DNA from: Geotalea toluenoxydans JCM 15764
GTDB taxonomy: Bacteria; Desulfobacterota; Desulfuromonadia; Geobacterales; Geobacteraceae
DNA length: 64,000 nt
NCBI RefSeq assembly: GCF_001311985.1
Contig: NZ_BBCJ01000001.1
Coordinates: forward strand, 62,001-126,000
Direction of reading: 5' to 3'
Below, piece by piece: positions 27,036 through 49,118 of the stretch. Below the pieces are notes generated by a model. That model ran no database searches. It worked only from the letters and a program-made list of their open reading frames with translations, and was not told where the DNA came from. Position 1 is the stretch's first letter. Each line of letters opens with the position of its first letter. The position numbers and the translations under genes were made by a program.

Positions 27036-27635
27036 ATGCTTGTGCCAATAGTAGTTGAGCAAACCGGAAGAGGTGAACGGTCCTACGATATATATTCCAG
27101 ACTTCTCAAAGACCGGATCATCTTTCTGGGTGGAGCAATAGATGACACGGTTTCGAATCTTGTCATTGCTCAACTCCTCTTTCTTGAAGCGGAGGACCCT
27201 GACAAGGATATCCATCTTTACATAAATTCTCCGGGTGGCGTAGTTACTGCGGGGATGGCTATTTACGATACCATGCGCTATATCAAGGCACCGGTATCGA
27301 CCATCTGTGTCGGTCAGGCTGCTTCCATGGGTGCATTTCTGCTTTCTGGTGGTGAGAAGGGAAAAAGGTTCAGTCTCGCCAACTCCAGAATAATGATTCA
27401 CCAGCCGCTTGGAGGATTTCAGGGGCAGGCCACCGACATACATATTCATGCTCAGGAGATATTGCGCATGAAAAAGAAACTCAATGAGTTGCTGGCTGAA
27501 CATAGCGGACAGACGGTGGAAAAGATCGAGGCGGATACGGAACGTGATTATTTTATGTCTGGTGAAGATGCGAAAACCTATGGTATCATAGATTCCATAA
27601 TTACCAGAAACACCATTACGGGAGGTTCCCGGTGA
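27036..27635 (+). CDS. clpP: ATP-dependent Clp protease proteolytic subunit
   Basis: ClpP is the barrel-shaped serine protease partnered by ClpX. The 199-residue product has the triad S97 ([11 protein letters not shown]), H122 (IMIHQPLGG) and D171 (ERDYFMSG), and [15 protein letters not shown] 27036 has TAGGAG six bases upstream; the upstream in-frame extension overlaps the end of tig. Its stop overlaps the clpX start by four bases (GTGA), so translation of the two is coupled. Confidence 0.97.
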
Positions 27636-28885
27636 GTAGAAGAGACGACCGGTCCGATAATCTGATCTGTTCCTTTTGCGGCAAAAGCCAGGAAGAGGTA
27701 AAAAAACTGATCGCAGGTCCCACAGTTTACATCTGTGACGAATGCATCGAGTTGTGCAACGACATCATAGCCGAAGAGTCGAAACTTGAAGAGGCAACGG
27801 GACCGGATGTCAAAAAACTGCCAAAACCCCTTGAAATAAAAGATGTCCTCGATGAGTATGTGATAGGACAGAAACAGGCCAAAAAGGTTCTTGCCGTTGC
27901 AGTCTATAACCACTACAAACGCATTGAAGCCATGACCAAACCGGGCGAAGTGGAGATGCAGAAAAGCAACATCCTGCTTCTGGGTCCGACAGGTTCGGGT
28001 AAAACCCTGCTGGCTCAGACTTTGGCAAGGATCCTTAAGGTTCCATTCGCCATGGCAGATGCAACCAACCTGACAGAGGCTGGTTATGTAGGTGAGGATG
28101 TGGAAAATATCATTCTTAACCTTTTGCAGGCTGCCGATTATGATGTTGAGCGGGCACAGAAGGGCATAATCTATATAGATGAAATCGACAAAATAGCCCG
28201 CAAATCGGACTCTCCTTCCATAACCAGGGATGTTTCCGGCGAAGGCGTACAGCAGGCTCTTTTGAAAATCATCGAGGGCACTGTTGCCAGCGTGCCTCCC
28301 AAAGGCGGACGAAAGCACCCTCAGCAGGAATTCCTTAAGGTAGATACGACAAATATTCTCTTTATCTGCGGTGGCGCTTTTGCTGGTCTGGAAAATATCA
28401 TCCAGCAACGGATTGGGGTCAAGACTTTAGGTTTTGGCGCTGACGTTAAAAAAGAAAATCGAGAAAAAAGCCGGGGAGCTGCTTATCGGCGTAACGCCAG
28501 AGGACCTGCTGAAATTTGGATTTATTCCTGAATTCGTAGGGAGGCTGCCTGTTCTTGCTTCTCTCACCGAATTGGATGAAGAAGCAATGGTTCAGATACT
28601 CAAGGAACCCAAAAACGCCTTGGTCAAACAGTACCAGAAACTTTTCGACATGGAGCACGTCAAGCTCAAATTCACGGATGGTTCCTTGGTTGCCATTGCC
28701 AGAGAGGCTTTAAAAAGAAAAACCGGAGCGCGAGGCTTAGGTCCATACTGGAGAATGCCATGCTCGACATCATGTATGAGATACCATCTCAGACCATGGT
28801 TAAAGAGGTGGTAATCAGCGAAGATGTTATCTACAACAAGGAAAAACCAATTATAGTATATGAAAGCGTGGCGGAGTCAGCCTGA
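27632..28885 (+). CDS. clpX: ATP-dependent Clp protease ATPase subunit ClpX (two frameshifts)
   Basis: ClpX unfolds substrates and threads them into ClpP. The N-terminal zinc-binding domain shows [11 protein letters not shown] and CDECIELC. The AAA+ core has Walker [16 protein letters not shown], Walker [14 protein letters not shown] and the sensor region near [11 protein letters not shown]. The frame breaks at the A-run 28448-28453, which has probably gained one A (restoring [12 protein letters not shown]), and near 28739 where one base is missing (restoring [22 protein letters not shown]). The repaired length is about 417 residues. The start is GTG 27632, overlapping the clpP stop. Confidence 0.95.
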
Positions 28886-28903
28886 CGCATGGGAAACTGT
28901 TAA

Positions 28904-31292
28904 ATGTCTGAGAAAACCAAGACCAGCAGCATCAAGAGAGGGAAACCGACCAGGTTCCCTCTCTTTCCTTTAAGAGATATGGTGATTTTCCCCCACATGG
29001 TGGTGCCTCTGTTCGTGGGGAGGGAAAAATCGATCCATGCCCTGGAAGCGGCGATGAATGGCAATAAATACATCTTTCTTGCCACCCAGAAAAATGCCAA
29101 GGTTGAAGACCCTAAACCGGATGAAATATACAGCACCGGAACCATCTGTCACATCATTCAACTACTTAAACTTCCTGACGGCACGGTAAAAGTGCTTGTC
29201 GAAGGTGAAAAACGTGGAACGATCCTCTCCTACCTGAACTGTGACGGCTACTTTACCGTGGAAGTCGCAGATGTTTCAGAATCTTCCAACAAGACGGCTA
29301 AATTGGAGGCTTTTGTCAGAGGAATCCGCAGTTCTTTTGAAAGGTACGTCAAACTTACCAAAACCATACCTGCTGAAGTGACCAATGTGGTTTCCGGTAT
29401 TTCGGAACCTTCCAGGCTGGCAGACAGCATAGCTACCCATTTAAACCTGAAAATAACGGACAAGCAGGACCTGCTTTCCCTGGCTGATCCACTGAAAAGA
29501 TTGGAAAAGCTCCTGGTATTCATGGAATCAGAGATTGAAATACTGCAGATTGAAAATCGCATTCATTCCCGCGTCAAAAAACAAATGGAGAAAGCCCAGA
29601 AAGATTACTATCTCAATGAGCAGATGCGGGCAATCCAGAAGGAACTGGGAAATAAAGATGAGTTCAAGCAGGAATTGGCAGAATTGGAAAAGAAAATAGC
29701 CAGACTGAAAATGCCTGTTGAAGCCTCAGAAAAAGCTCTGTCTGAATTGAAGAAGTTAAAGTCGATGTCTCCTGCCTCCGCTGAGGCTGCGTTATAAGAA
29801 ATTACCTGGATTGGCTCCTTTCCGTGCCCTGGACTGAATCGTCTGCTGAAAACAAGGATATAGCCACTGCCGAATCTGTTCTCGATGCTGATCACTTTGG
29901 ACTTGAGAAGGTAAAAGAGAGGATACTGGAGTACCTGGCAGTTACTTCTCTTGTTGCCTTGAAAGGACCTATAATATGTCTTGTCGGGCCCCCAGGGGTC
30001 GGCAAGACATCCCTGGTTAAATCCATCGCCAGAGCCACGGGACGGAAGTTTATCAAAATGTCTCTTGGAGGAGTGCGTGACGAAGCAGAAATCAGAGGAC
30101 ACAGACGTACATATGTTGGAGCCATGCCGGGTAAGATCATACAGAGCATGAAAAGAGCTGGTACAATCAACCTGTCTTCCTTCTGGATGAAATCGATAAA
30201 ATGAGCACGGATTTCAGGGGGGATCCTGCTTCAGCTCTTCTTGAAGTGCTTGATCCTGAACAGAATTTCACCTTCACCGATCATTTCCTCGATGTTGACT
30301 ATGATCTGTCCAGGGTAATGTTCGTGACGACCGCCAATTCCCTTCATTCCATTCCACGACCGCTTTTGGACAGGCTTGAGGTTATAAGGCTGGATGGTTA
30401 TCTGGAAATGGAAAAACTTGCCATCGCAAAACAGTACCTGGTGAAAAAACAGCTGGCAGCCCATGGCCTGCAGGGAAAAAATGCGACATTTACCGATAAG
30501 GCCATATTGGAGATAATTCGCCACTATACCCGTGAGGCAGGAGTAAGAAACCTTGAGAGGGAAATAGCCAATATTTGCCGAAAAACCGCCCATGCTCTTG
30601 TAAAAGGTGAAAATTCAAGATCAAAGAAGATTGCCATTTCGGACAGAGAGATTAAAAACTTCCTCGGGGTTCCGCGTTTCAGATATGGGATGGGAGAGGA
30701 AACGGATTCCATAGGAGTTGTTACGGGACTTGCCTGGACAGAAGTGGGGGGGGACTTGCTGAAGATTGAAGTTGCCACTCTTCCCGGTAAAGGTAAAATG
30801 ATCATAACAGGTAAACTTGGTGAGGTGATGCAGGAATCCGCCCAGGCTGCCATGACCTATGTCCGTTCCCGAGCATTGATGCTGGGGCTGGAGCCCGACT
30901 TCTATCAGAATCTGGACATACATATTCATGTCCCTGAAGGAGCGATCTAAGGATGGTCCATCTGCGGGGATAACCATGCAACGGCGATAATCTCTGCTTT
31001 GACAAATAAGGCAGTTCTGAATTCCATTGCCATGACCGGTGAAATTACTCTTCTGGGCAGAGTTCTTGCCATAGGCGGTTTAAAGGAAAAGATTCTTGCT
31101 GCCAGGCGTGGTCTGATAAAAAAAGTGCTTATCCCGGTAGATAATGAAAAGGATCTGGTGGAAATGCCCAAAGAACTCATTGCAGGGTTGGAAATAAGAT
31201 CAGTAAAACATATGGATGATGTCATTTTGAACGCTTTTGTTTCCAGTCCATTAGTTGCAAAAGCGGAGAGTTTTCAGATACTGGCGGTATGA
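28904..31292 (+). CDS. lon: ATP-dependent protease La (Lon; four frameshifts)
   Basis: Lon is a single-chain AAA+ serine protease for misfolded and regulatory proteins. The N-terminal LON domain starts [23 protein letters not shown]. The AAA+ module has Walker [38 protein letters not shown] and Walker B FLLDEIDK. The protease domain carries the catalytic serine in DGPSAGIT and lysine in [11 protein letters not shown]. Breaks occur near 29791, 30171, 30947 (two bases, restoring EGAIPKDGPSAG) and 30978. The repaired length is about 797 residues, normal for Lon. It follows clpX by 18 bases. Four breaks in one gene make it the worst-affected gene here. Confidence 0.93.
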
Positions 31293-31419: not shown

Positions 31420-31496
<77 letters not shown>

Positions 31497-31500
31497 TTAA

Positions 31501-31576
31501 GGGCGAATAGCTCAGCTGGGAGAGCGCCAGCCTTACAAGCTGGATGTCACAGGTTCGATCCCTGTTTCGCCCACCA
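31501..31576 (+). tRNA. tRNA-Val (anticodon TAC)
   Basis: The acceptor stem GGGCGAA/TTCGCCC, D arm AGCTCAGCTGGGAGAGC, anticodon arm CCAGC-CTTACAA-GCTGG giving TAC, T loop GGTTCGATCC and encoded CCA are present. It follows the first tRNA-Asp after four bases, in the same transcript. Confidence 0.95.
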
Positions 31577-31585
31577 AAACACTCG

Positions 31586-31613
31586 CGGGAGATAACATCT
31601 CCCGTTTTGTTTT
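31586..31613 (+). terminator. terminator-like hairpin after tRNA-Val
   Basis: CGGGAGAT (31586-31593) pairs with ATCTCCCG (31597-31604) around AAC, followed by TTTTGTTTT. It separates the first two tRNAs from the second tRNA-Asp, which has no obvious promoter of its own. Confidence 0.75.
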
Positions 31614-31633
31614 ACCACCACCACAATTTATTT

Positions 31634-31710
<77 letters not shown>

Positions 31711-31906: not shown

Positions 31907-32620
31907 GTGAAGACTGTTGTAGTTATACCCACCTACAACGAGTGTGAAAATCTTGAGAGACTGACGACGCAAGTCCTTGCTCAGGATGTATCCATCTCCA
32001 TTTTGATCGTTGACGACAATTCCCCTGACGGGACCGGTGACCTAGCAGATAAAATGGCTGCATTAAATCCAAGGATCAGCGTTCTTCATCGCAAAGGAAA
32101 GCTTGGCCTGGGATCAGCGTACAGAGAAGGATTCCGTCTCGCGATGCAGCAAGGTGCAGATTATATAATCGAAATGGATGCAGATTTTTCCCATGACCCG
32201 GAGATACTGCCGCACTTTCTTCAAAAAATGTCCGAATTTGATCTGGTCATAGGATCGCGGTATCTGAATGGGGTCAGTGTTGTTAATTGGCCCATAAGAC
32301 GACTTATTCTCAGCTACTCTGCCAGTGTCTACACACGCCTTATTACTGGCCTCAAGATTTCCGACTGCACCAGCGGGTTTAAATGTTTCAGTCGTAAGGT
32401 TTTAGAAAAGATAAACCTGGACGAAATAAAATCTGATGGATATTCCTTTCAGATTGAGATGAATTTCCGCTGCGTCGAGCAAGGCTTTAAGGTCGGGGAA
32501 GTGCCGATCATATTTATAGACAGGCATGCTGGGTCATCCAAGATGTCAAAAAAAATCGTCCGCGAGGCGGTGATAATGGTCTGGAAATTGAAACTCGGCT
32601 CACTTTTACACTATAAATAA
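31907..32620 (+). CDS. polyprenol-phosphate mannosyltransferase-like GT2 glycosyltransferase
   Basis: The 237-residue GT-A fold glycosyltransferase resembles dolichol/polyprenol-phosphate mannose synthase (DPM1). Visible motifs are VVIPTYNECENL, IVDDNSPDGTGD, the metal-binding EMDADFSHDPE, and SDCTSGFKCFSRKVL. It has no C-terminal membrane domain, unlike larger bacterial homologues. It would transfer a sugar from a nucleotide donor to a lipid carrier at the inner membrane face. GTG 31907 is chosen for AAGGGGGG just upstream. It is the first gene after the tRNA terminator and is followed by the small membrane protein and cytochrome genes. Confidence 0.85.
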   Translation: MKTVVVIPTYNECENLERLTTQVLAQDVSISILIVDDNSPDGTGDLADKMAALNPRISVLHRKGKLGLGSAYREGFRLAMQQGADYIIEMDADFSHDPEILPHFLQKMSEFDLVIGSRYLNGVSVVNWPIRRLILSYSASVYTRLITGLKISDCTSGFKCFSRKVLEKINLDEIKSDGYSFQIEMNFRCVEQGFKVGEVPIIFIDRHAGSSKMSKKIVREAVIMVWKLKLGSLLHYK

Positions 32621-32641: not shown

Positions 32642-32827
32642 ATGTCGTCCCAACAATGGGCCATTCTTACATTACTCGGTTTTTATGGCTGGATTTCATC
32701 TACTGTAGCTTTCATTCTGACCAGCTTTCCATCAAATGGAGGATTTCTGATAAAAAAAGGAATCAGAATCGGAAGCTGTGTTGTTTTCTTTTTTGCCATG
32801 TGGATAATCGGCATGCTTAACGCCTGA
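32642..32827 (+). CDS. small membrane protein, function unknown
   Basis: A 61-residue protein with two hydrophobic segments, about residues 7-27 and 44-60, joined by a short loop containing KKGIR. I recognise no family. An AAGGAA site precedes ATG 32642. It lies 21 bases after the glycosyltransferase and 14 bases before the NHL lipoprotein, so it is probably cotranscribed with them. Confidence 0.6.
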   Translation: MSSQQWAILTLLGFYGWISSTVAFILTSFPSNGGFLIKKGIRIGSCVVFFFAMWIIGMLNA

Positions 32828-32841
32828 AAGGGGAGTGGCTA

Positions 32842-33873
32842 TTGCTTTGTAAAGCTTTTCTTACCGTTTCCCTGCTCCTGCTTACTGCCTGTGCAGCTGT
32901 TGAGCCGCTTACTCTCCACGATCCCCAGATTAATCTTGCTTGGCCTTATCCCCCCAACGAACCTCGAATCAGGTTTCTCCGGACCATCAACGGCCCGGAC
33001 GATATTCTGCCCCCTCGTGGAAAGGTCAGAAAATATTTTGATTATTTGACGGGTGAGTCGGACCAGGGAATAAAGCTCGATCTGCCCTTCGCTATTGGAG
33101 GGGATGGCGAATCCGTATTTTACATAGCAGATTCCGGCATGGGGATTGTTCACAGATACGACTTGGAGTCACGGGAGGTGGGATACCTTTTCATGGCCGG
33201 GGAGGATCTGCTGTCCAGTCCTGTAGGGGTCGCGGTTGATTCCGCTAAAAACCTGTATGTCTCCGATTCGTTGAACGGCAAGGTGTATAAATATGATAAG
33301 AATGGAAAATTTCTTAGGGAATTAAAACCGGAAAAACCCTTCTCCAGGCCGGCCGGTATTGCAGTAAACAGCAAAGACGAAAAGTATGTGGTGGATGTTC
33401 TGGCACACAAACTGTATCTTTTTGACAAAGATGATCGCTTTAAGAGTCCTTTCCCACGACAACGTGAAGATCAGGAACTTAGTTACCCATCCAATGTTGC
33501 AGTGGATAGCAGTGATAACGTGTATATTACCGATTCAATGAACTTCACCATTAAAAAGTTTACGCCTGATGGCGAACTTAAGGGCAAAATCGGCGACATA
33601 GGCGATGCACCCGGTTCTTTCGCCAGGCCAAAAGGGATAGCTATTGACGGGGAAGGTCATCTCTATGTTATTGATGCCACCCTTGATGATTTCCAGATCT
33701 TTAACTCCGAGGGAAAACTCCTTCTGCATGTGGGGAAAAATGGCGCAAGACCTGGAGAATTTTATTTGCCCAGCGGTATATATATCGATAAAAAGGATCA
33801 TATCTTCATCGCAGACACTTACAACAGCAGAGTGCAGGTTTTTCAGTATTTGAGAGAGGGTACGAAACAGTGA
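32842..33873 (+). CDS. NHL-repeat lipoprotein
   Basis: The 343-residue product has a lipoprotein signal peptide with LLTAC (cysteine 17) and then about five or six NHL-type beta-propeller blades. Each blade carries a P-x-G-I/V-A-V-D element followed by N/H-L/V-Y-V-x-D (for example SPVGVAVDSAKNLYVSDS, YPSNVAVDSSDNVYITDS, RPKGIAIDGEGHLYVIDA). Such propellers commonly act as scaffolds near multihaem cytochromes in Geobacter. Start TTG 32842 has GGGGAG a few bases upstream. Its stop overlaps the next gene's GTG start by four bases, which ties it directly to the tetrahaem cytochrome. Confidence 0.85.
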   Translation: MLCKAFLTVSLLLLTACAAVEPLTLHDPQINLAWPYPPNEPRIRFLRTINGPDDILPPRGKVRKYFDYLTGESDQGIKLDLPFAIGGDGESVFYIADSGMGIVHRYDLESREVGYLFMAGEDLLSSPVGVAVDSAKNLYVSDSLNGKVYKYDKNGKFLRELKPEKPFSRPAGIAVNSKDEKYVVDVLAHKLYLFDKDDRFKSPFPRQREDQELSYPSNVAVDSSDNVYITDSMNFTIKKFTPDGELKGKIGDIGDAPGSFARPKGIAIDGEGHLYVIDATLDDFQIFNSEGKLLLHVGKNGARPGEFYLPSGIYIDKKDHIFIADTYNSRVQVFQYLREGTKQ

Positions 33874-34607
33874 AAAAGGTTCTTGTCGGATTGGCTGTTC
33901 TCATTAGCCTGATAATTCTCCAGAAAAACAGTTTTGCCATTTATGGTCCCAAGGTAACCGAGACAGGCAACAAGCACAACTTGTCCTATGACAATACCGG
34001 GGTTACATACAAGGCCTCCGATTCCAGTGATCCTCGCGCACGCCAGATATGTATATTCTGCCATACACCTCATAATGCGGTGATCAATCGTGGATTGTGG
34101 AACAGGATGGAGACCACCCAGGTCTTCGGACAATACACCGCTACAGGTCTTCGCATCAGAACCGATCTCAAAGCCATAAGCGATTATAACGAACCAAATG
34201 GTGCATCACGGCTCTGTCTCAGTTGTCATGACGGAGTTACTGCACTCGGAGCCGTTGCTCGTGGCACCAACATAGCCATAAACGGTGATCTTGCCAAGGT
34301 TATGGCCGGAATCAACGTTTTCGATCGCACTAAAGTTACCAATTCCCATCACCCTGTTTCCTTCAATTATGCCCGAGTGCAGCAAGCCCTGCCTGATTAC
34401 AAGGTCGTTTCTTCCGATGGGAAAGTAAAACTTGACGGACAAGGCAGGATGCAGTGCACCACCTGTCACGATCCTCATCAGACCAGGGATACGACCATGC
34501 CTTTCTGGGTATGGGACTACATACCGCCGGATCCCCCTTCGGATCCTGCGAACTCACACGATGCAGTATGTGTTACCTGTCATCAATTTCCTAACAATAC
34601 CTTTTAA
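33870..34607 (+). CDS. tetrahaem c-type cytochrome
   Basis: The 245-residue exported protein has a signal peptide (MKKVLVGLAVLISLI) and four CxxCH haem sites: CIFCH 61-65, CLSCH 116-120, CTTCH 196-200 and CVTCH 234-238. Other histidines (TPHN, SHHPV, DPHQ) could be distal ligands. It is probably periplasmic or surface-located and carries electrons. The GTG start overlaps the NHL lipoprotein stop, and the next cytochrome starts 11 bases on, so the three form one unit, likely for extracellular electron transfer. I cannot match it to a named Geobacter cytochrome. Confidence 0.87.
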   Translation: MKKVLVGLAVLISLIILQKNSFAIYGPKVTETGNKHNLSYDNTGVTYKASDSSDPRARQICIFCHTPHNAVINRGLWNRMETTQVFGQYTATGLRIRTDLKAISDYNEPNGASRLCLSCHDGVTALGAVARGTNIAINGDLAKVMAGINVFDRTKVTNSHHPVSFNYARVQQALPDYKVVSSDGKVKLDGQGRMQCTTCHDPHQTRDTTMPFWVWDYIPPDPPSDPANSHDAVCVTCHQFPNNTF

Positions 34608-34618
34608 GGAAATTCCTT

Positions 34619-35707
34619 ATGTATAAAATACTTTTCATATCTGTGTCGCTGCTAGCCATGTCCCTATCGATATCAGCGTTCGGGGCCGACAAAGTTACCC
34701 ACCTGGATGGGACAAAGGTACCTCGTGGTTGCGCCACCTGTCATAATCGTTTCAATTTCAAGACAGGGGGCGGCGTTGCAATATGCATTGTTTGCCATGG
34801 TGATCCTTCCCGGATTTCCCAGGAATACAAGTTTATGCCGAAAAAGTTTGCTCCCAAAATGTCCGACCAGAAAAACGTCGAGGCCGAGTTTAAAAAGCCC
34901 TATCGCCATCCTGCCTTCGAATTTTCAGCAGGAGTGCACCGGGCTCAGGAGAATTTTCCTGAAACGGATTCCAGGGCACAGCGTCATGCAACTTGCGGCG
35001 ATTGCCATAATGTTCACTATTCCACCCCTACCAACAAATTTGCCGGATTAAAGAATAAAAGGGGGTTGGTAACGTCCATATCCAATGAGTATGAGCTTTG
35101 CTACCGGTGTCATGGCGATAGTGCAAATCTTCCCTCACGATCTACAAATAAAAGAGTTCTGTTCGCTTCAACAAATCCATCCTTTCATCCCATTGAAGCC
35201 GAAGGTAGAAATTCGGCTGTAGTCAGTCTGTTGAAACCATACAAGGAAAAGAAGATTATTCCGGGAGATGTATCCCGAATTTCATGCAGCGACTGCCATG
35301 GAAGCGATAATTCCTCATCTCCTTCCGGACCACATGGCTCCAACTATGAGTTCATCCTGGTAGAGAATTACTCTATCAGGGACAACCAGTCCGAATCGCC
35401 GCAGAATTATGCTCTATGCTATCGGTGTCATAGTCGCACCAGCATCATGAGCGATGAAAGCTTCAAGTATCACTCGCTGCATATCAACGGAAGGGCCGCC
35501 GGTTCATCTTTTTCAGGTACTTCCTGCCACACCTGCCATGATTCCCATGGAAGTACCGAATACAAATATCTTATTAGATTCAACCAGGAGATTGTTTCCG
35601 CCAATGCAAACGGAACCTTGAAATTTGTGGAAAAAGGAGTGGCTTCATTCCGTGGTGAATGTTATCTTTCGTGTCACGGCGTGGATCACGATCCAAAAAA
35701 ATATTAA
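34619..35707 (+). CDS. multihaem c-type cytochrome (seven CxxCH plus one CxxxCH)
   Basis: The 362-residue exported protein has a signal peptide cleaved near AFG-AD. Seven canonical haem sites begin at residues 38, 56, 126, 161, 223, 267 and 303. An eighth, C348-YLS-C352-H353, has three residues between the cysteines, an uncommon haem motif. No indel is needed to explain it, since the frame is open on both sides. It is cotranscribed with the tetrahaem cytochrome and ends at a strong hairpin terminator. A role in electron transfer to extracellular acceptors is likely but unproven. Confidence 0.87.
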   Translation: MYKILFISVSLLAMSLSISAFGADKVTHLDGTKVPRGCATCHNRFNFKTGGGVAICIVCHGDPSRISQEYKFMPKKFAPKMSDQKNVEAEFKKPYRHPAFEFSAGVHRAQENFPETDSRAQRHATCGDCHNVHYSTPTNKFAGLKNKRGLVTSISNEYELCYRCHGDSANLPSRSTNKRVLFASTNPSFHPIEAEGRNSAVVSLLKPYKEKKIIPGDVSRISCSDCHGSDNSSSPSGPHGSNYEFILVENYSIRDNQSESPQNYALCYRCHSRTSIMSDESFKYHSLHINGRAAGSSFSGTSCHTCHDSHGSTEYKYLIRFNQEIVSANANGTLKFVEKGVASFRGECYLSCHGVDHDPKKY

Positions 35708-35741
35708 ATATCTACATTTATCTGTTAAAATGTGATAATTA

Positions 35742-35774
35742 AAAACCACAGTCTTTTGTGCTGTGGTTTTAATT
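35742..35774 (+). terminator. terminator after the cytochrome operon
   Basis: AAAACCACAG (35742-35751) pairs perfectly with CTGTGGTTTT (35761-35770) around a nine-base loop. The T tract doubles as part of the stem. It separates the cytochrome unit from the pilus/secretion cluster. Confidence 0.85.
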
Positions 35775-35812
35775 ATTCTAATTTCAAACTTTTTATGGTA
35801 GATTCTGCCTCT

Positions 35813-37020
35813 ATGCCTCTCTTTAAATGTAAAATCGGTGCCGCAGACGGCAAAATTCTTGAAAAGGAACTTGAAGCTGCAAATGTTTCCGTTCTTAAGC
35901 AAAGTCTTGAAGAGCAAGGCTTTTTTGTTTTTGAGCTTAGGAAAAAACCAATGCAGTTTCTTCAGGACGTTGGTATCAGTCGACGCAAGGTCGACAATAA
36001 AGCCCTCCTTACCTTTAACCAGGAATTACTGGTGCTGATCAAAGCCGGTCTACCGATCATTCAGGCGCTTGATACCATTTTGGAGCGGGTAGAGAAGGGG
36101 CGTTTGCCGGAAATACTGAATGAAGTCCGGGAGGATGTTAAGGGAGGCGCCGCTTTATCAACAGCATTTCAAAAGCACCCGAAGGTCTTCCCCCATCTGT
36201 ACATCGCTTCGGTCCAGGCTGGCGAGAGAACCGGCGATCTACCCCAGACCATTTCCCGTTATATTGCATTTCTTAAGAAATCAGAAGGCTTTAAGAAAAA
36301 GGTCATCTCCGCCCTTATTTATCCCGGAATCATCCTGACTGTTGCATTTCTCGCCGTAACCATGCTGCTGGTCTATGTAGTTCCCACATTCAGCCAGGTT
36401 TACGCCGACTCAAAATCGAGTCTTCCGTTACCAACGCAAATGTTGATCGGATTTACCAGCGTTCTCAAACGTTATTTCCTTGTCGCTGTCGGTCTCATTA
36501 TCATTTCAGCTTTCCTTTTAAGGAAATGGTCGGAAACGGAAGCCGGCAGATTCAGGTGGATAGCCTCAAGATCAGAATTCCGTTCATTGGTCCGCTTCTC
36601 ATTAAGTATGCCATGACCACCTTCATGCGGACTTTGGCTACTGTTATGGGGAGTGGTATTCCCATTGTGGAGTCACTCAGAATGTCAGTGGGTACCCTGA
36701 ATAACATGTTACTTGAGCGGAAGCTTTTGGCTGCCGTTGTGAGAGTGGAAGAAGGGGTCCAGCTATCTTCAGCCCTTGAAGGAACCAGGATGATGCCTCC
36801 CCTTGCTTTGCGCATGTTGGGTGTCGGTGAGACAACCGGTTCGCTGGAAGAAATGCTGGGGGACATATCTGAGTATTTTGAGGAAGAAATAGAACGAAAC
36901 CTGAACGTGCTGACAACTTCCATTGAGCCTGCCATCATGGTAGTTATGGGAATAATTATCGGCGGCATCATCATAACCATGTACCTGCCCATATTCAAAA
37001 TAGCAGGGACAGTAGGTTGA
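35813..37020 (+). CDS. type II secretion/type IV pilus inner membrane platform protein (GspF/PilC-like; one frameshift)
   Basis: This is the polytopic platform protein of a type IV filament machine. The N-terminal domain is followed by two T2SSF domains. Motifs include FNQELLVLIKAGLPIIQALD, the first membrane block SALIYPGIILTVAFLAVTMLLVYVV, then a second domain with SGIPIVESL and the final hydrophobic helix before the C terminus. One base is missing near 36556, joining ETEAGRFR to VDSLKIRIPF for about 402 residues. The start is uncertain: ATG 35813 gives MPLFKCKIGAADG, typical of the family; ATG 35795 is in frame too. Next comes the ATPase gene. Confidence 0.87.
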
Positions 37021-37028
37021 AGGTATAC

Positions 37029-38749
37029 ATGAACAAAACGTTCAAAAGGAAAAAACTCGGAGATATTCTGGTCGATAACCAGACTATTACTCCGGAACAA
37101 CTTACTTTTGTCATTGATAAACTGAAAAGCACCAGTGAGCGCTTTGGGGCCATCTGCCTCAATGAGGGGCTGATCACCGATGCCGATCTGGCTCGGGCTT
37201 TGGCTGAGCAGTTTGGCCTGGAATATCTTGACCTGCAGGATTTCAAGCCTGACGAGACGGTTCTGGAATTACTTCCTCCCGATGCAATGCAGCGTTTTCA
37301 TTTTGTACCGCTTGAACTGCTTGGGGATGCTCTGGTAGTGGCCATTTCAGATCCCACTGATGTTCTTAAGCTCGATGAGATGGAGTTACTGCTCGATAGG
37401 CCAGTAATTCTGAAAATTGCTCCTGAGTCACAGATTCTGATCTTGTTAAAAAAAGGAGAAGGAGCAAGAAGCGTCCTCAAGGAAGTCTCTGAAGACTTCA
37501 TGCTCCAGTTGGTAACCGAGACGGATAAAGGGGAAGAAGTCCTGTCGGTGGAAAAAATTTCAGCCGATACCAGCCCCATTATCAAGCTGGTCAACTCAAC
37601 GATCCTTGATGCCTTAAACCGCCGTACCAGCGATATTCATATAGAGACCACCCAGGAAGGGTCATCATCAAGTACCGCATCGACGGGGTGTTATACAAAG
37701 CGACAGAACCTATCGATTTGCACTTCCAGGGGCCGATCATTTCCCGTCTCAAGGTCATGAGCGAGCTGGACATCTCAGAACGCCGCATCCCCCAGGATGG
37801 GAGATTCAAGGTCCGGATCAATGGCAAATCCATAGATTTTCGTGTATCCATCATGCCCAGTGCTTTCGGCGAGGACGCCGTAATAAGGATTCTTGACAAG
37901 GAAAGCATTGCAACGGATCTCAAGGGACTTACCCTTGAGACACTGGGCATGGACAGCAGGGAAATAAAACGGTTTCGCAAGATGATCAAGGAACCGTACG
38001 GGATGGTGCTGGTAACGGGGCCTACCGGTTCGGGGAAAACTACGACCCTTTATGGCGCACTCACGGAGATCCATTCAGGCGAAGAAAAAATCATTACCAT
38101 AGAAGATCCGGTTGAATATGTTCTTCGTGGCATTGTTCAGATCCCGGTAAATGAAAAAAAAGGCCTTACTTTCGCACGGGGGCTTCGTTCCATTCTTCGC
38201 CACGACCCCGACAAGATAATGGTAGGCGAAATAAGGGATCCTGAAACTGCGCAAATCGCCGTCCAGTCGGCTCTTACCGGCCATCTTGTATTTACTACCG
38301 TTCATGCAAACAACGTCTTTGACGTGATCGGGCGTTTTACCCACATGGGGATCGATCCCTACAACTTTGTCGCCTGTCTCAACTGTGTCATGGCCCAACG
38401 CTTGGTACGAAAGATCTGTCCGAAGTGCAAGTATCCAGTAGTCATTCCCGATGAAAAGCTGATAGAGTCAGCCATAGACCCGGAAAGATGCCGAAACGTT
38501 ACATTTTACGAGGCCAAGGGCTGCGACGATTGCAATGGTACCGGTTATCGCGGAAGGTCGGCCATTGTAGAGCTTCTGGATCTCAACGATGAAATACGGG
38601 AGCTTATAATAGCCAAGGCTTCGGCAATTCAGCTGAAAAAAGCTGCCAAAGAGGCGGGAACCGTTTTTTTACGTGAGTCTGCCGTGGAAAAAGTACTTGC
38701 AGGTGATACCACATTACGGGAAATAAACCGCGTCACCTTTGTTGAATAA
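37029..38749 (+). CDS. type II secretion/type IV pilus assembly ATPase (GspE/PilB-like; one frameshift)
   Basis: The assembly ATPase drives filament extension. The N-terminal MshEN-type region (LGDILVDNQTITPEQL) is followed by the ATPase core with Walker [17 protein letters not shown], the Asp box, Walker B MVGEIRDPETA and the His box TGHLVFTTVHAN. Two CxxC pairs (CPKC and CDDC) form the zinc knuckle seen in GspE and PilB. One base is missing near 37660, where GGGTC should read GGGGTC, restoring EGVIIKYRIDGVL. The repaired length is about 573 residues. I prefer ATG 37029 over TTG 37017 because GAAGGT lies upstream. Confidence 0.91.
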
Positions 38750-38771
38750 ATAGAACATTCGGGTCCACATC

Positions 38772-39698
38772 ATGTTTTTGTCGAAAAAAGCCATAGGAGT
38801 TGAAGTATCGGGGGAGGCCATCAAAATGGCCGTTGTAGACGGAAGTCGTAATTCCTTAAGCCTTGCAGCTTACAATGCGACCCCTGTTCCACATGATCTT
38901 CTGAAGTTCGGCATGAAGGAGCAGAATGTTCTCAATCCTTCTGCTTTTGTTGGCATTATCCGAGATGCCTATCTCAGACTCCTGACAAAAGAAACAGTCA
39001 TTTCCCTGTCTTTGCCAGAAACCGCAGGACGAGTCATGCTTGTGGATATTGAGACCCGTTTTAAAAGCAAGGAAGAAGGAAAAGAAATCATCCGCTGGAA
39101 GCTGAAAAAGAATTTCTCCTTCAATATAAGCGAGACTCACCTGGATTATCAGGTGCTAGAAGAAAAAGATGACGGTGCAATGTCCCTTCTTGTGTCTATC
39201 ATAGCCAAACCGGTGATTACACAATTTGAAGAACTCTTTCTTCAGGCAGGGCTTGAACCCAAATTTATAGATTTTACCGGCTTCAATGTTTACAGGCTAT
39301 TTTCAAACCGTTTGTCGGTAACAGAAAATGTAACTTTCTTTACTTTCCATAACGGCATTTTCACCATGATGGTTTTTTATGGCGAGGTACTTGTCTTTTA
39401 TCGCTCCAAAGATCTCTCACAAGGTATTTTCGAGCCTAACCGACTATATCGGGAGATCAACAACTCACAGCTGGTGTTTAAGGACAAATTTCCCGGTTTC
39501 TCTGCCAATGAGGTCTTTTGCTTTGCTGCCGGCGAAGACGCCGAATCTTTTAGTGGTGTAGTTAGTGATGCAATAGGCGCGGAACCGATTTTGCTCGACG
39601 TGAGCCGCGTGATCTCCAGCCAAAGCGGAGTCGCCACAGATCGAAGATTGCTGCAATCTCTGGCTGGTGCTTTAGGTGCCGCAGTGAGGGATTTCTGA
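38772..39698 (+). CDS. PilM-like pilus assembly protein (actin-like)
   Basis: The 308-residue protein has PilM/GspL-cytoplasmic domain character: the start KKAIGVEVSGEAIKMAVVDG is the first phosphate-binding strand of the actin-like fold. SLPETAGRVMLVDI and the C-terminal LQSLAGALGAAV follow. In type IV pilus systems PilM binds the cytoplasmic tail of PilN and ties the platform to the inner membrane ring. It is somewhat shorter than classical PilM (about 350). Its TGA overlaps the next ATG by one base. Sequence identity to known PilM is low enough that GspL is the alternative. Confidence 0.72.
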   Translation: MFLSKKAIGVEVSGEAIKMAVVDGSRNSLSLAAYNATPVPHDLLKFGMKEQNVLNPSAFVGIIRDAYLRLLTKETVISLSLPETAGRVMLVDIETRFKSKEEGKEIIRWKLKKNFSFNISETHLDYQVLEEKDDGAMSLLVSIIAKPVITQFEELFLQAGLEPKFIDFTGFNVYRLFSNRLSVTENVTFFTFHNGIFTMMVFYGEVLVFYRSKDLSQGIFEPNRLYREINNSQLVFKDKFPGFSANEVFCFAAGEDAESFSGVVSDAIGAEPILLDVSRVISSQSGVATDRRLLQSLAGALGAAVRDF

Positions 39699-40237
39699 TG
39701 CAGTTTACTACCAATCTTGCAACCAGAAGCTATATCAATCTTCGTCAGCTGCATCTGATTATTGCCATTACGGCAATTCTTCTCATACTGTGGCTTGTTT
39801 TTAACATCAGGGAAATATTCTTCAATCTTGGCGAGACCAAACGCCTTGAGACGCAAATCATATCTCTGGACAGGAAAATTAAGGGTGATTCAAAAGGTGT
39901 ACCCGCAAAAGAATATGAAACGGTGCTGGCTAAAATCCGCTTTGCCAATTCGATTATTGAAAAGAAAAGCTTGAACTGGCTTAATTTTCTGGAACAGCTC
40001 GAATCGGTAGTCCCGGAAGGGGTTACTCTTAGTACTGTAGAACCTGATGTGGAGAAACGCACTCTCAAGCTGACCGGCTATGGTAAATCCTTTACCGATT
40101 TGCGGCGCTTTTTTGAAGTTCTTTCCTCTTCAGCATATTTCAAGAACGTTTTCCTGGAAAATCAATCGGCAATCAAGGTAGGACAGAATCAGAAAGGGGT
40201 AAGTTTCACCATTACCTGTACGGTAATATACAAATGA
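39698..40237 (+). CDS. PilN-like inner membrane protein
   Basis: The 179-residue protein has a short cytoplasmic N terminus containing NLATRSYIN, the segment PilN uses to bind PilM. A single membrane helix follows (LIIAITAILLILWLVF), then a periplasmic coiled coil and a small ferredoxin-like domain (NWLNFLEQLESVVPEGVTLSTVEP). It overlaps the neighbouring genes at both ends, indicating tight coupling in the PilMNOP-like module. Confidence 0.75.
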   Translation: MQFTTNLATRSYINLRQLHLIIAITAILLILWLVFNIREIFFNLGETKRLETQIISLDRKIKGDSKGVPAKEYETVLAKIRFANSIIEKKSLNWLNFLEQLESVVPEGVTLSTVEPDVEKRTLKLTGYGKSFTDLRRFFEVLSSSAYFKNVFLENQSAIKVGQNQKGVSFTITCTVIYK

Positions 40238-40785
40238 ATCTCCAACTTTTAAAAGAGACGCTAATAGCCAAGAAGCGCTTGGTTTTACCGATAATTTTTT
40301 TGTTGTTCATCAACATTGTTTCCTTCATTTATCTTACTTTCTATCAGGAACCACGGGTTGCATCACTGCAAAGCAGTTGGTTTGAAAAACGGCAGAAGAG
40401 CAGCCAGATGAGTGTCCTTGACACTGCCACAATCTATGCCCAAGGGAAGAGAGACCTACAGACGTGGCACTCAAGAATCCTTTCTAAGAACGATTTTGCA
40501 CGCATGCTGGGCGAGCTTTTTGAAACTGCGAGCAACAATAGTCTGGTCGTAAACAATGTTACCTACAAACCGAACAGCATGAAAGAGCAAGGACTTCTTG
40601 CCTATACCATCGATTTTTCCGTTTCCGGTAATTATGCCGGGATGAAAAGCTTCATTTCCGATTTGATGCGCTCCCGGCAGATAATTTTATTGGACAATCT
40701 GTCCCTTGCCAATGCCAGCCAGACAAAAGAGGACGTGCAACTCAAGTTGAAACTGATCACCTATTTCCGGATGGAGGGGCCATGA
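40234..40785 (+). CDS. PilO/GspM-like inner membrane protein
   Basis: The 183-residue protein has one N-terminal membrane helix (LVLPIIFLLFINIVSFIYL), a helical periplasmic section and a C-terminal beta-alpha domain (YTIDFSVSGNYAGMKSFISDLMRS). This is the PilO architecture and the usual partner of PilN. ATG 40234 overlaps the PilN stop by four bases and its own stop overlaps the next ATG the same way. Confidence 0.7.
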   Translation: MNLQLLKETLIAKKRLVLPIIFLLFINIVSFIYLTFYQEPRVASLQSSWFEKRQKSSQMSVLDTATIYAQGKRDLQTWHSRILSKNDFARMLGELFETASNNSLVVNNVTYKPNSMKEQGLLAYTIDFSVSGNYAGMKSFISDLMRSRQIILLDNLSLANASQTKEDVQLKLKLITYFRMEGP

Positions 40786-41414
40786 ACAGGAAAAAACTGA
40801 CCCTCGCCATTCTGGTGCTTTTGCTTATCCTGTCCATAATTTACAGTGTTTTCAGCCAACCCAGACAAAAAAAGGCCGGAACGCTCAAATATCCAGGCAA
40901 AGGCGCCACCGTCAGTCAAACGGGCTCCAAAGCATTCTCCAGCTCCACTTCCGCCAGGTTGGATGACAAAAAGCTTCATCTGCAATTACTGGACAAAGAG
41001 TATCCAAAGTTTGCCGGTTTTAGACGTAATATTTTTGCTCCCATTTTTCACGAGGATGTTAAACCGGAAAGCAGGCCCACCGGCAGAATCAATTTGCCAA
41101 TACCGCCGCCTCCACCTGTGAGGCCTGCCCCACCTGTGGCGCCTCCTGCGATGCAGATGCCCGAGCAGACTCCGGTGCAGCGTGACATGGCCAGGTTTAC
41201 CTTTCTTGGTTTTTTGAAAAAGGACAACAGTAAGACGATCTTTCTCTCCAGCGACAAGGAGATTTTTCTCGTGAAAAAAGGGGACACCATTGCCGGTAAA
41301 TATGAGGTTGCCAATCTTACCGAAGATGCGTTGACCATTCACCCGCTGTCAGGTGGGGGGGAGATAGTTATCCCTCTGATCGAGAACAAATCCCTGGCTG
41401 CACCGAAACGCTGA
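40782..41414 (+). CDS. PilP/GspC-like periplasmic connector
   Basis: The 210-residue protein has an N-terminal membrane helix (LTLAILVLLLILSIIYSVF), a proline-rich linker (PPPPPVRPAPPVAPP) and a small C-terminal beta domain (FTFLGFLKKDNSKTIFLSSDKEIFLVKKGDTI). This matches the HR-type domains of PilP and GspC that connect the inner membrane complex to the secretin. The order PilM-N-O-P followed by a secretin supports the call more than sequence identity does. Confidence 0.68.
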   Translation: MNRKKLTLAILVLLLILSIIYSVFSQPRQKKAGTLKYPGKGATVSQTGSKAFSSSTSARLDDKKLHLQLLDKEYPKFAGFRRNIFAPIFHEDVKPESRPTGRINLPIPPPPPVRPAPPVAPPAMQMPEQTPVQRDMARFTFLGFLKKDNSKTIFLSSDKEIFLVKKGDTIAGKYEVANLTEDALTIHPLSGGGEIVIPLIENKSLAAPKR

Positions 41415-41441
41415 AAAGACTGCCCATAAGGAGTTTCAATA

Positions 41442-43858
41442 ATGCATCCCATAAAACAGCTGCCCACCATAATTCTTGGACTGGCCATTTTAGCCGGTTG
41501 TGCCGGCGGTCGCTCCGCACTCAGCAATGCCGAAAAGCTGGAGCGGGAAGGGCGTCTGGATGAAGCCGTTTTGAAATATGCAGAGGTTTCCGGCGCCAAC
41601 CCCGATGTGGGGGAATATCGCGTAAGGTTTCTTCAGGCCAGTGCGGCTGCTGCAAAAAAGCACATGAAAAAGGGAGAAGAATTCCTGGCGGCAGATAAAT
41701 ATGATGAAGCGCTACGCGAATACCAGACAGCCTTTGCTCTCGATCCTTCACTACAGCAGGCAAAGCAGCAGAGCGATCTGGTAATCAGGTTGAGGAACTC
41801 TCTGGTTTATCTGAAAGAAGGGGAGGAGTTCGAAAAAAGCCGGAAACCCAAGGAGGCCATACGCTCCTATCAAAAGGCTCTTGAATTCAATCAAAAGAAT
41901 GAGGCAGCGAAAAATGCAGTTGAACGCCTGCTAAAGAGCAAGAAACCGAAGATGGACGGCTATGAGCTGAACCTAAAATCCAACAAGCCACTGACCCTTA
42001 AATTCAAGGACGCCAAGATAAAAGAGGTCTTCAATATAATTTCGCAACTTTCAGGCATCAATTTCGTTTTTGACGAAGGGGTAAAAGACCAGAACTTTTC
42101 CATTTATCTGGAAAACGCCACCTTTCAGCAGGCACTGGATATTATTTGCGGCGTAAACAAGCTTGGCAAAAAAGTGTTAAACGAGAACACGATTATCATT
42201 TATACCAAAAGCCCTGAAAAGACCAAACAATATGAAGAACTCATTGTCCAGACCTTTTATCTTAACAAGCTCGATGCCAAAAAAGCGGTAAACCTGATCC
42301 GCACCATGCTGCAGGTGAAGAAGATCTATGTAAATGAAGAGATGAATGCACTGGTGATCAGGGATACTCCCGAGGTAATCGAAGTGGCTCAGAAAATCCT
42401 GGATGCCAATGATGTACCCGATGCCGAGGTCGTACTCGAGGTTGAGGTCATCGAAATATCCAAGGGCAACGTGGAGAACTTCGGTCTGGCTTTGAGCCAA
42501 TATGCTGTTTCAACCGCTGCAGCTAAAGAAGGGGCATCGACTTTTCTTTCCGACGTGTTAGTACCGCCGACAACAACCTCGTCATCAACTACACCGTCTA
42601 CAACCAACACAGACAATCTTCTTAATCTTTTCCGTTGGCGTGGCTTCAACGGTTTCCTGACGGTGCCCAACGCCACCTTCAACTTCGGCAAGACCCTTTC
42701 CAATGGCGAGACCCTGGCAAATCCGAAGATAAGGGTGAAAAACCGGGAGAAGGCAAAGTTCAATGTGGGTACCAGGGTGCCGATAACCACCACATCGACC
42801 AATGGGACGAGCATCGGCGTTAACGTCAACGTCCAGTACGTGGATGTGGGGGTCAAGATGAATGCCGAGCCCACCATCCAGCTGAACAATGAAGTCTCCA
42901 TCAAACTGAGCCTGGAGGTAAGCTCCATCCTCAGCAAGGACAAGATCGGCGATGCAAGTTCGCTGACGACCGTTGTCACCATAGGTACCGCAACCTTGAC
43001 ACCGTGTTGAGCCTCAAGGATGGGGAGACCAGCATCATCGGCGGCCTTATTCAGGACTCCAAGACCAAGGGCAAACGTAAAGTGATGATTCTCGGCGATA
43101 TCCCGATTATCGGTCCGTTATTATCCAGTAACGATAATTCCAACAGCAAGTCAGAACTGGTGCTGGCGATTACTCCCCGGGTAGTTCGCTCCATCAGCGT
43201 GCCGGAAGGTGATGCTGCCGGATTCTGGTCGGGTAAGGAAGATGAACCATCCTTGTCCAAGCCCTATTCATCCTTTGTTCAGGAGCCGGAACTCGTTCCA
43301 GCCGTGCAAACCACGCCGCTTCCACCGGCCGAAGCACCAGTAAAACCCGAAACCGAGCCGAAGGCTGCCCCATCTGTTCAGCCTCCACCACCAGTTCCCG
43401 CACAACCAGAGCCCCCCACTGCTGCCGAACCGCAGTCGCCGGCTCCCAAGGTTACTGTCAATCTGGCTGCCCCTGCTTCGGTGGAGCTTAATAGTCAGTT
43501 CAGCGTCGAGATCAAGGTTGCCAATACGACCAATCTTGTCAGCGCGCCCTTCACTTTTGCATATGACCCGATCTTTCTTGAACTGATCAGGCTAACAGAG
43601 GGCCCCTTCATGAAGAAAGACGGTAAGCCTACCACGTTTCGTCCAACCATAGACAAAGTCACCGGGCAGGTTGCAATCAGTCTTTCTCGACCGGCAGAGG
43701 TAGGGGGGGTAACCGGCAGCGGGACACTGGCAATCGCCACCTTCAGGGCAAAAAATCAGGGACCGGCAAGTATGGGATTTCTTGATACCAATCTCACAGC
43801 CGTCGGCGGGAAGCCTGTAGATGCCCTCTCCTATAGTGCCGTCGTTGAAGTGAAATAG
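41442..43858 (+). CDS. secretin lipoprotein with N-terminal TPRs and C-terminal cohesin domain (GspD/PilQ-like; one frameshift)
   Basis: This outer membrane channel of the machine has about 805 residues after repair. A lipobox LAGC (cysteine near 20) is followed by two or three TPR-like repeats (25-165). An STN/N0 domain (LNLKSNKPLTLKFKDAKIKEVF), an N1 domain (TFYLNKLDAKKAVNLI) and the secretin core follow (SLTTVVTIGTRNLDTVLSLKDGET, GDIPIIGPL, SELVLAITPRVV). After a Pro/Glu-rich linker, residues 665-805 form a cohesin-like beta sandwich with SVEIKVANTTNLVSAPFTFAYDP and GSGTLAIATFRAK. One base is missing near 42989. The cohesin tail is unusual for a secretin and links it to the dockerin-bearing protein at 50049. 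Confidence 0.87.
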
Positions 43859-43866
43859 AATTTGAC

Positions 43867-44384
43867 GTGAAAACCAATTCTCTGATTAGAAATAACAGCG
43901 GCGTAAGCCTGGTTGAGCTTGTTGTGACCTTGGTCATTCTTTCCATTCTGGCCGCAATAATACTGCCGTCGGCGCAGATGACGGCACGACGTACCAAGGA
44001 ACTGGAGCTGAAGAGAAACCTGAGGGTGATCCGCACCGCCTTGGATGAATTCAAGAAGAAATATGACCAGGCTGTGGCCGACAAAAAAATTACCCCTTCG
44101 TTGAACGATATGCAGTCCGGGTACCCCAAGACCCTCAATATGCTAGTGGAGGGATATGATTTTGGCGGCTTGACGGAGAGCAATATCAAATTCCTGCGCA
44201 GGATTCCCCGCGACCCCTTCAACCCAGCAAAGCCGGGCGAAGAAGTCAAAGAAGAGGAACTCTGGGGGCTTCGCTCCTATAAGGACAAACCGGACAGCAC
44301 TACTTGGGGGAAGAGGACGTATATGACGTTTACTCCCTCAGCGAAGAGACTGCCATCGACGGTACAAAATACAAGGATTGGTGA
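43867..44384 (+). CDS. type IV pilin-like / GspG-type pseudopilin (one frameshift)
   Basis: The prepilin signature is NSGVSLVELVVTLVILSILA, with G/V at the cleavage site and glutamate at mature position 5. The globular part contains RRIPRDPFNP, a GspG-like calcium-loop region. One base is missing near 44309 in a G-run. Restoring it replaces a nonsense tail by EEDVYDVYSLSEET...TKYKDW, closely matching the end of the second pseudopilin, and moves the stop to 44382-44384. The repaired length is about 172 residues. The last base of the stop is the first base of the next gene. Confidence 0.82.
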
Positions 44385-44818
44385 TGAAAATATCCGTATC
44401 TGACAAGTCGCCGCAGATGATCAGGCCATGGGCCAACAAAAAAGCATTCACCCTCATAGAGTTGTTGATAGTCATGACCATTGTTGGTATCCTTGCCTCC
44501 ATAGCCGTTCCCAACTACAGATGGGGAATAATCAAGGCAAAGGAAGCGGTGTTGCGGGAGGACCTCTACAACCTGCGTACCACCATTGACAATTTCTATG
44601 CGGATCAAGGAAAATACCCCGATGCCCTCCAGGAGCTGGTGGATAAAAAATACCTGCGTGATTTGCCGAAAGACCCTTTCACCAACGATAAAGAAACTTG
44701 GAAAGTTGTGCCTCCTCCTGCCGGAGCTGAGGGAGAAGAAATCAAAGGCTCCGTGTACGATGTCCATAGCGGCTCCGATCTCATCGGCACCAATGGCATA
44801 TCCTACAACGAGTGGTGA
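44384..44818 (+). CDS. type IV pilin-like / GspG-type pseudopilin
   Basis: The 144-residue product has an N-terminal leader ending NKKA before FTLIELLIVMTIVGILASIAVPNY, the canonical pilin helix with glutamate 5. The residue before the cleavage site is alanine, not the usual glycine, which prepilin peptidases tolerate but process variably. The C-terminal half has LPKDPFTND and ends YDVHSGSDLIGTNGISYNEW, the GspG-type calcium-binding region. Together with the preceding gene it supplies the filament subunits of the cluster. I chose ATG 44384, overlapping the upstream stop. Confidence 0.85.
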   Translation: MKISVSDKSPQMIRPWANKKAFTLIELLIVMTIVGILASIAVPNYRWGIIKAKEAVLREDLYNLRTTIDNFYADQGKYPDALQELVDKKYLRDLPKDPFTNDKETWKVVPPPAGAEGEEIKGSVYDVHSGSDLIGTNGISYNEW

Positions 44819-49068: not shown

Positions 49069-49118
49069 CAGGAGGCATTACAACATTCCAGTTAAAAATA
49101 CGATTGAAAGGAGTAATT

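Follow-up and report, generated by a model that had tools for sequence, protein, structure and literature searches.

A porin-less unit of an NHL lipoprotein and two multihaem cytochromes in Geotalea toluenoxydans, related to OmcE and a candidate surface electron adaptor

Background

In this study, we report the analysis of a three-gene unit of Geotalea toluenoxydans JCM 15764, located on a stretch of 64,000 nucleotides (the window; contig NZ_BBCJ01000001.1, positions 62,001 to 126,000 of the forward strand). The unit encodes an NHL-propeller lipoprotein (NHL), a tetrahaem c-type cytochrome (C4) and an octahaem-like cytochrome (C8). It is somewhat probable that NHL-C4-C8 is the split, porin-less form of a module of many phyla, composed of an NHL protein, an OmcE-fold tetrahaem part and an octahaem part, and that it serves as a twelve-haem electron adaptor at the outer membrane or the cell surface. 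The family placement comes from sequence comparison, and the adaptor role and the secretion route are what we infer. The unit is regarded as a variant of a known, little-studied surface electron-transfer module. To our knowledge, it is an open question how the outer membrane anchors cytochrome filaments and supplies them with electrons. A paralogue of the OmcE subunit, joined in many phyla to an octahaem protein in one chain and often encoded alongside an outer-membrane barrel, offers a concrete candidate for the connection between filament and membrane.

A more specific proposal, which we put forward tentatively, is that C4-C8 serves OmcE-type nanowires as a docking base or as a cap. C4 would be an OmcE-fold mimic of the filament subunit, and C8 an octahaem module reaching into the envelope; in other phyla the pair would be seated in a barrel, and in Desulfuromonadia it would have been split, lost its barrel and come to be carried out by the adjoining type II secretion system. 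A literature search, carried out without the source papers on Uet and OmcE, found nothing that joins Uet, OmcE and the NHL-C4-C8 unit, and absence from print is not claimed. An earlier reading of the window from its letters alone (the sequence-only reading) had proposed an extracellular electron transfer module working with a porin encoded elsewhere. Its view of a module-like unit without a porin of its own is retained here; the paralogy of C4 with OmcE, the fusion of C8 and the type II secretion neighbour had been missed.

Results and discussion

Organisation of the NHL-C4-C8 unit

The NHL gene (32842..33873, on the forward strand, as are the other features given below in the form start..end) encodes a propeller lipoprotein of 343 amino acids (aa) with the lipobox LTAC and four NHL stretches recognised by Pfam; its open reading frame (ORF) starts with TTG and is preceded by GGGGAG. 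It overlaps the C4 gene by the four bases GTGA (33870..33873), the start codon of C4 being GTG. The C4 gene (33870..34607) encodes a tetrahaem cytochrome with four CXXCH motifs, which a match to 7tfs_A, a profile and a tree place in the OmcE family and outside the OmcE clade. The C8 gene (34619..35707) begins 11 bases past C4 and was characterised by its motif counts (seven CXXCH and one CX3CH), the Pfam domain PF22113 and its fusions in other genomes. Its CX3CH motif, CYLSCH, occupies residues 348-353 (35660..35677). The coordinates in the sequence-only reading were exact, including the four-base overlap and the 11-base gap, and "octahaem-like" is a fair label for the third ORF with its seven CXXCH motifs and CYLSCH. 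The terminator proposed to close the unit corresponds to a terminator-like hairpin at 35742..35770, between the unit and the secretion genes, found by hairpin scan (nine hairpins overall against a shuffled mean of 5.3, a slight excess) and with a folding z-score of -5.9, none of 200 shuffles being equally stable.

The genome assembly is 84% complete, and in the window clpX, lon, gspF, gspE and gspD are frameshifted (27632-31292 and 35732-43858). Locus L140 of the closed congeneric genome G028 has lon, gspF, gspE and gspD unbroken. As this locus also carries NHL, C4 and C8 proteins 96-99% identical to those of the window, the reading frames of the three genes are considered sound.

C8, its fusion to C4 and the NHL partner

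C8 matched the MtrC/MtrF-like domain PF22113 of Pfam at E 6.5e-14. Every C8 haem motif, CX3CH included, is kept throughout alignment A1 (49 sequences, from 48 loci and the window); L015, being nearly a copy, and rows that deviate in length or in the number of motifs were left out of it. Rows outside A1 include L016, L018, L036, L044, L045 and L052 (L030-like fragments excepted); CX3CH is absent in L036 and in the fragments at L016 and L044. An atypical CX3CH motif is described for ImcH (PMC6295460), and because of this precedent the motif was dropped as a novelty. The AlphaFold model of C8 (pLDDT 82.1) had no PDB fold match at E 0.001, so that the fold gives no indication of function.

C4 and C8 were found as one ORF, mostly with eleven CXXCH motifs and the CX3CH, in 26 of the 57 C4/C8 loci examined (the window included; L001, a copy of the window, was not counted). 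The NHL gene was adjacent in 23 of these fused loci, a 500-950 aa ORF without CXXCH lay directly upstream of the NHL gene in 19, and a gene of the OmcE clade was within the stretch in 20, with some misses due to contig ends (L024, L041); secretion genes followed downstream in one (L018). The corresponding counts for the 31 separate loci, window included, were 30 for NHL, two for the 500-950 aa ORF (L061, L078), three for an OmcE-clade gene and 20 for secretion genes. Judged from these loci, C8 is the partner of C4, the two forming a single chain in other phyla, in most cases with 12 haem motifs, and the NHL lipoprotein gene is the usual upstream neighbour of the pair. The NHL protein of the window groups with NHL proteins encoded beside C4/C8 genes (two label changes on the tree against a shuffled mean of 26.8). 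The four-base overlap of NHL and C4 is present in 37 of the 53 loci where an NHL gene precedes C4, and with CX3CH invariant in the 49 A1 sequences, neither feature is due to chance.

Two side observations concern the same genes. A C4-C8 fusion in a Geobacter metagenome-assembled genome (L018:7983-10052) has a C4 that groups with the split forms, which points either to a fusion event separate from the others or to an error in the sequence. Between C8 and gspF, the loci L005-L011, L013-L015, L142-L145, L147 and L148 encode a short cytochrome (about 140-150 aa, three CXXCH motifs) that is missing from the window, L002, L004, L012 and L139-L141.

The barrel in relatives and in the own genome

The 650-690 aa proteins encoded upstream in fused loci are predicted to be outer-membrane barrels. 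The four that were scanned had no Pfam match, and the AlphaFold model of the one at L032 (20 sequences, pLDDT 86.9) consisted almost entirely of beta strands behind an N-terminal helix. Its best PDB match was chain B of the Mtr complex, which we take to be MtrB (E 7.9e-10, TM 0.44), followed by LptD and pilus ushers. Thirty split and ten fused loci, a subset of the C8 profile matches chosen by us, were read gene by gene: a barrel was recognised by BLAST at none of the 30 split loci and at seven of the ten fused loci, with a size-matched ORF in its place at two and the remaining locus cut by the contig end. Two large ORFs upstream in the split locus L147 were considered as barrels and rejected, being sensor kinases. 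At the window locus no barrel-size gene adjoins the unit, as the sequence-only reading had noted, and the comparison of orthologous clusters with and without a porin that it had suggested gives the difference described above, with a barrel-size ORF upstream in 19 of 26 fused and 2 of 31 separate loci.

The composition of the fused loci resembles that of the Uet complex, the undecahaem electron transfer complex described for Tenderiales and Gallionella (PMC10734462, PMC12575090). As published, this complex comprises UetJ with 11-12 haem motifs, the NHL proteins UetHI, the barrel UetC and the tetrahaem protein UetA (PMC10734462); by that description, relatives of the unit hold the same kinds of parts, namely NHL, the C4-C8 fusion, a tetrahaem gene and a beta-barrel. 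The locus shares with Uet one NHL gene, directly upstream, and the parts that would correspond to UetJ lie in two genes, with four CXXCH and with seven CXXCH and the CX3CH, respectively. It differs in that the barrel and the separate tetrahaem gene are not at the locus, where the trihaem genes and the peptidyl-prolyl isomerase of Uet were not recognised either. With the Omb-Oma-Omc and Ext conduits the unit has in common a lipoprotein and multihaem cytochromes in an electron-exporting lineage, but these conduits have a porin gene with the cytochromes and the window locus has none. The unit does not resemble those clusters, with which the sequence-only reading had suggested a comparison, though the families were not searched one by one and C8 does match the MtrC/MtrF-like domain.

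An ordinary porin conduit at the locus was rejected, as no porin gene was seen there and the profile of the Uet-like barrel (A2) had no match in the own genome (G000); it had none in G028 either. It is unlikely that C4 and C8 are instead the cytochrome part of an ordinary porin-cytochrome conduit whose barrel is encoded elsewhere, for example at an OmcE-like locus. Such a barrel exists. The own genome has two further OmcE-family genes, one on contig 12 beside an NHL gene and the other on contig 30, in an OmcE-like locus that also holds genes for ResB and CcsA, two cytochrome genes, an NHL gene and a barrel gene that is broken. This OmcE-locus barrel is intact in G028, a closed genome, as a single 746-aa ORF, followed by two family 2 glycosyltransferase (GT2) genes. 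The barrel-size ORF directly upstream in 19 of the 26 fused relatives also favours a barrel partner. However, the barrel family of those relatives was the one not found in the own genome or G028, and the OmcE-locus barrel has its own cytochromes; its relative in L071, searched with phmmer, matched only the L053 counterpart and none of the Uet-like barrels.

A further OmcE-family gene beside an NHL gene was seen in L162 (G028:C1:1917000-1935000), with a large cytochrome ORF nearby (1153 aa, seven CXXCH). GT2 glycosyltransferase genes occur both in the window (31907-32620) and after the OmcE-locus barrel (L161:13248-15172). Glycosylation is reported on the surface of OmcE and OmcS filaments (PMC9473688), and the GT2 genes at both loci may possibly be linked to it.

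C4 as a paralogue of OmcE

A single-sequence phmmer search of the PDB with C4 matched 7tfs_A at E 7.5e-15, and a C4 profile of 32 sequences matched residues 13-232 of this 232-residue chain at E 3.8e-46; L071, a member of the OmcE clade, matched 7tfs at E 8e-46. The 7TFS structure is the OmcE filament (PMC12954529) of Geobacter sulfurreducens. The C4 profile also matched another multihaem chain, 9yuq, at E 1.1e-32. The motif histidines and four further histidines are conserved in 96 of 96 aligned C4 domains; in the window C4 the latter are H36, H68, H161 and H203, the presumed distal haem ligands. C4 thus resembles OmcE as a near full-length tetrahaem homologue with the same four haem motifs and matching histidines. 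NHL genes also lie near OmcE-like genes, and for Geoalkalibacter ferrihydriticus a single locus encoding two NHL proteins and a homologue of OmcE is described (PMC12016550).

The C4 tree of 95 domains contained an OmcE clade (48), the split C4 (31) and the fused C4 (16), each on one side of a branch (SH-aLRT 95, 93 and 81, respectively), and it is the branch of SH-aLRT 95 that separates the window C4 from the OmcE clade. OmcE was represented in this tree by its close homologues L071 and L053 rather than by OmcE itself, L018 was left out for its length, and L019 and L021, whose contigs stop shortly after C4, were assigned to the split group by their place in an earlier tree.

The C-terminus gives a second distinction. 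Proteins of the OmcE clade end two residues past the fourth CXXCH in 47 of 48 cases and three residues past it in the other, always with a final lysine, whereas the tails of split C4 are 2-28 residues long (n=31), just one being of two residues, and that of the window C4 has seven. A further set, which shares some members with the first, was sorted by best BLAST match: of its ten OmcE-like proteins, eight had tails of two residues and two had tails of four, of which one ended in arginine, and its 29 C4 tails were 7-27 residues long. The short terminus ending in lysine may be imposed by packing within the filament, a constraint that would no longer act on C4. The rule was seen in the L020-L081 proteins and in L161:9912-10601, and such a rule (a CXXCH-x-Lys end in 47 of 48 OmcE-clade proteins against longer tails in 30 of 31 split C4) could help surveys to sort likely filament formers from their partners.

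On these sequence grounds C4 is firmly placed in the OmcE family, and the window C4 is a paralogue of OmcE; that it is OmcE itself is ruled out by its position in the tree and its C-terminal tail. It differs from OmcE in lying outside the OmcE clade, in its seven-residue tail in place of a near-invariant two-residue end, and in being paired with C8. The full-length homology to OmcE and 9yuq and the retained haem histidines would suit a C4 that assembles on its own into filaments like those of OmcE, C8 being the cap or base. The same tree and tails stand against this, as does the fusion of C4 to C8 in 26 of 57 loci, 20 of those 26 having a separate OmcE-clade gene nearby, and we consider such a filament unlikely.

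Distribution in Desulfuromonadia and the type II secretion neighbourhood

Of 195 class genomes, 112 had a match to the C8 profile at E 1e-30; in the phylum, the profile matched 22 of 198 genomes. The split form is present in 64 of the 195 class genomes, a frequency that makes a knock-out in Geobacter feasible. The 64 split matches were picked by hand (E <= 2.1e-111, open frames up to 477 aa), and weaker matches were left out together with G175 (E 2e-99, six stops inside the match). Four genomes (G035, G052, G116, G127) hold both split and fused forms, and G015 probably does, judging from its open frames. The C8-like match of G175 (G175:C93:35906-36916), with six in-frame stops of all three kinds, is perhaps a decayed or misassembled copy.

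In 55 of the 64 genomes the split C8 has a gene for the secretion ATPase GspE no more than 5 kb away (2.3-3.5 kb from start to start). A GspE gene is held by 63 of the 64 split-form genomes against 153 of 195 overall (Fisher p 1.7e-7, a test that ignores kinship), and gspF and gspE adjoin the unit in 28 of the 30 split loci read, L130 and L138 being the exceptions. The unit is retained in G020 (L130), where GspE is 40 kb distant, so that adjacency is not essential. In the window, the type II secretion or pilus-like genes extend over 35813..44818, the start having been picked by eye, and encode F, E, PilM-, PilN- and PilO-like proteins, an ORF without a family, a secretin and pseudopilins (Pfam T2SSF, T2SSE, PilM_2, PilN, PilO, Secretin and N_methyl).

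These genes probably represent the Oxp/Pul system, whose pul genes are described as lying near cell-division and DNA-uptake genes and which secretes the oxidase OmpB (PMC3543383). The window likewise has an FtsX gene right after the secretion genes and a ComEC-type competence gene. The named cargo of Oxp/Pul is, however, the multicopper oxidase OmpB and not a cytochrome.

Proposed mechanism and points against it

In the electron adaptor that we favour, C4 and C8, once exported through the inner membrane, would come together as a single unit of twelve haems at the outer membrane or on the cell surface, where the NHL lipoprotein would hold them. The docked unit would pass electrons between envelope cytochromes and extracellular acceptors, a possible acceptor being an OmcE-type filament encoded elsewhere in the own genome. 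The weakest step is the passage of the outer membrane, for which Desulfuromonadia would rely on the type II secretion system encoded next to the unit, where the other phyla have the barrel.

Several observations weigh against this interpretation. As regards secretion, 90 genomes have a GspE gene and no split C8 match, and GspE is not adjacent at nine split loci (two have it 35-40 kb off on the same contig, six on other contigs, and one has no match). Adjacency alone is weak evidence because the upstream genes clpX and lon indicate a generally conserved gene order, and the hairpin separates the NHL-C4-C8 unit from the secretion genes. Neither a barrel nor an OmcE-clade gene is present at the window locus. 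The agreement with Uet is one of composition, taken from the published description, and not of sequence identity. Finally, the structure models were computed without haem, and the TM of 0.44 supports a large barrel rather than a close tie to MtrB, with LptD and pilus ushers ranking next.

The counterparts in G. sulfurreducens are presumably GSU1788-1785, judging from gene order. Of two c-type cytochromes in this range, GSU1785 is reported to fall in an ihfB-2 mutant and GSU1787 to fall with pilA and omcE under a conjugative plasmid (PMC7962754, PMC10063792).

It is quite unlikely that C4 and C8 are periplasmic electron carriers with no surface role. By eye, both have ordinary export signals and no lipobox, which together with the lack of a barrel at the locus would fit such carriers, but the gene neighbours in relatives resemble outer-membrane or surface parts, and C4 is related to OmcE.

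A respiratory reductase (nitrite, tetrathionate or sulphite) is very improbable. Close homologues in a nitrite or sulphur pathway were what the sequence-only reading had named as a possible objection; the resemblance to nitrite reductases and related cytochromes consisted of partial matches by Pfam, NCBIfam and PDB sequence and fold (in C8 up to about 145 of 328 positions), no CXXCK is present in the C4 or C8 translation, and the C8 model matched no enzyme fold in the PDB at E 0.001, hydroxylamine oxidoreductase appearing only at E 9.7.

Other features of the window

Upstream of the unit, a GT2 glycosyltransferase gene (31907..32620; Pfam PF00535, E 8e-33) is followed after 21 bases by an ORF of 61 aa (32642..32827), membrane-like by eye and without a Pfam family, which ends 14 bases ahead of the NHL gene. 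The GT2 gene may be the first gene of the transcription unit, and both may share a transcript with the NHL-C4-C8 genes; a sigma-70 scan gave nine sites against 8.7 expected. Many Geobacterales loci share the position of the GT2 gene. Among L119-L137 it was found in L121 and L131 and was absent from 15 others with sufficient reach (L120 and L125 are truncated). Genes for tRNA-Asp, tRNA-Val and tRNA-Asp (31420-31710) separate lon from the GT2 gene. Further downstream, at 49104-49766, a lipoprotein-like ORF carries a long Ser-Pro repeat near its N-terminus and has a weak match, below the Pfam cut-off, to a bacterial Ig-like domain.

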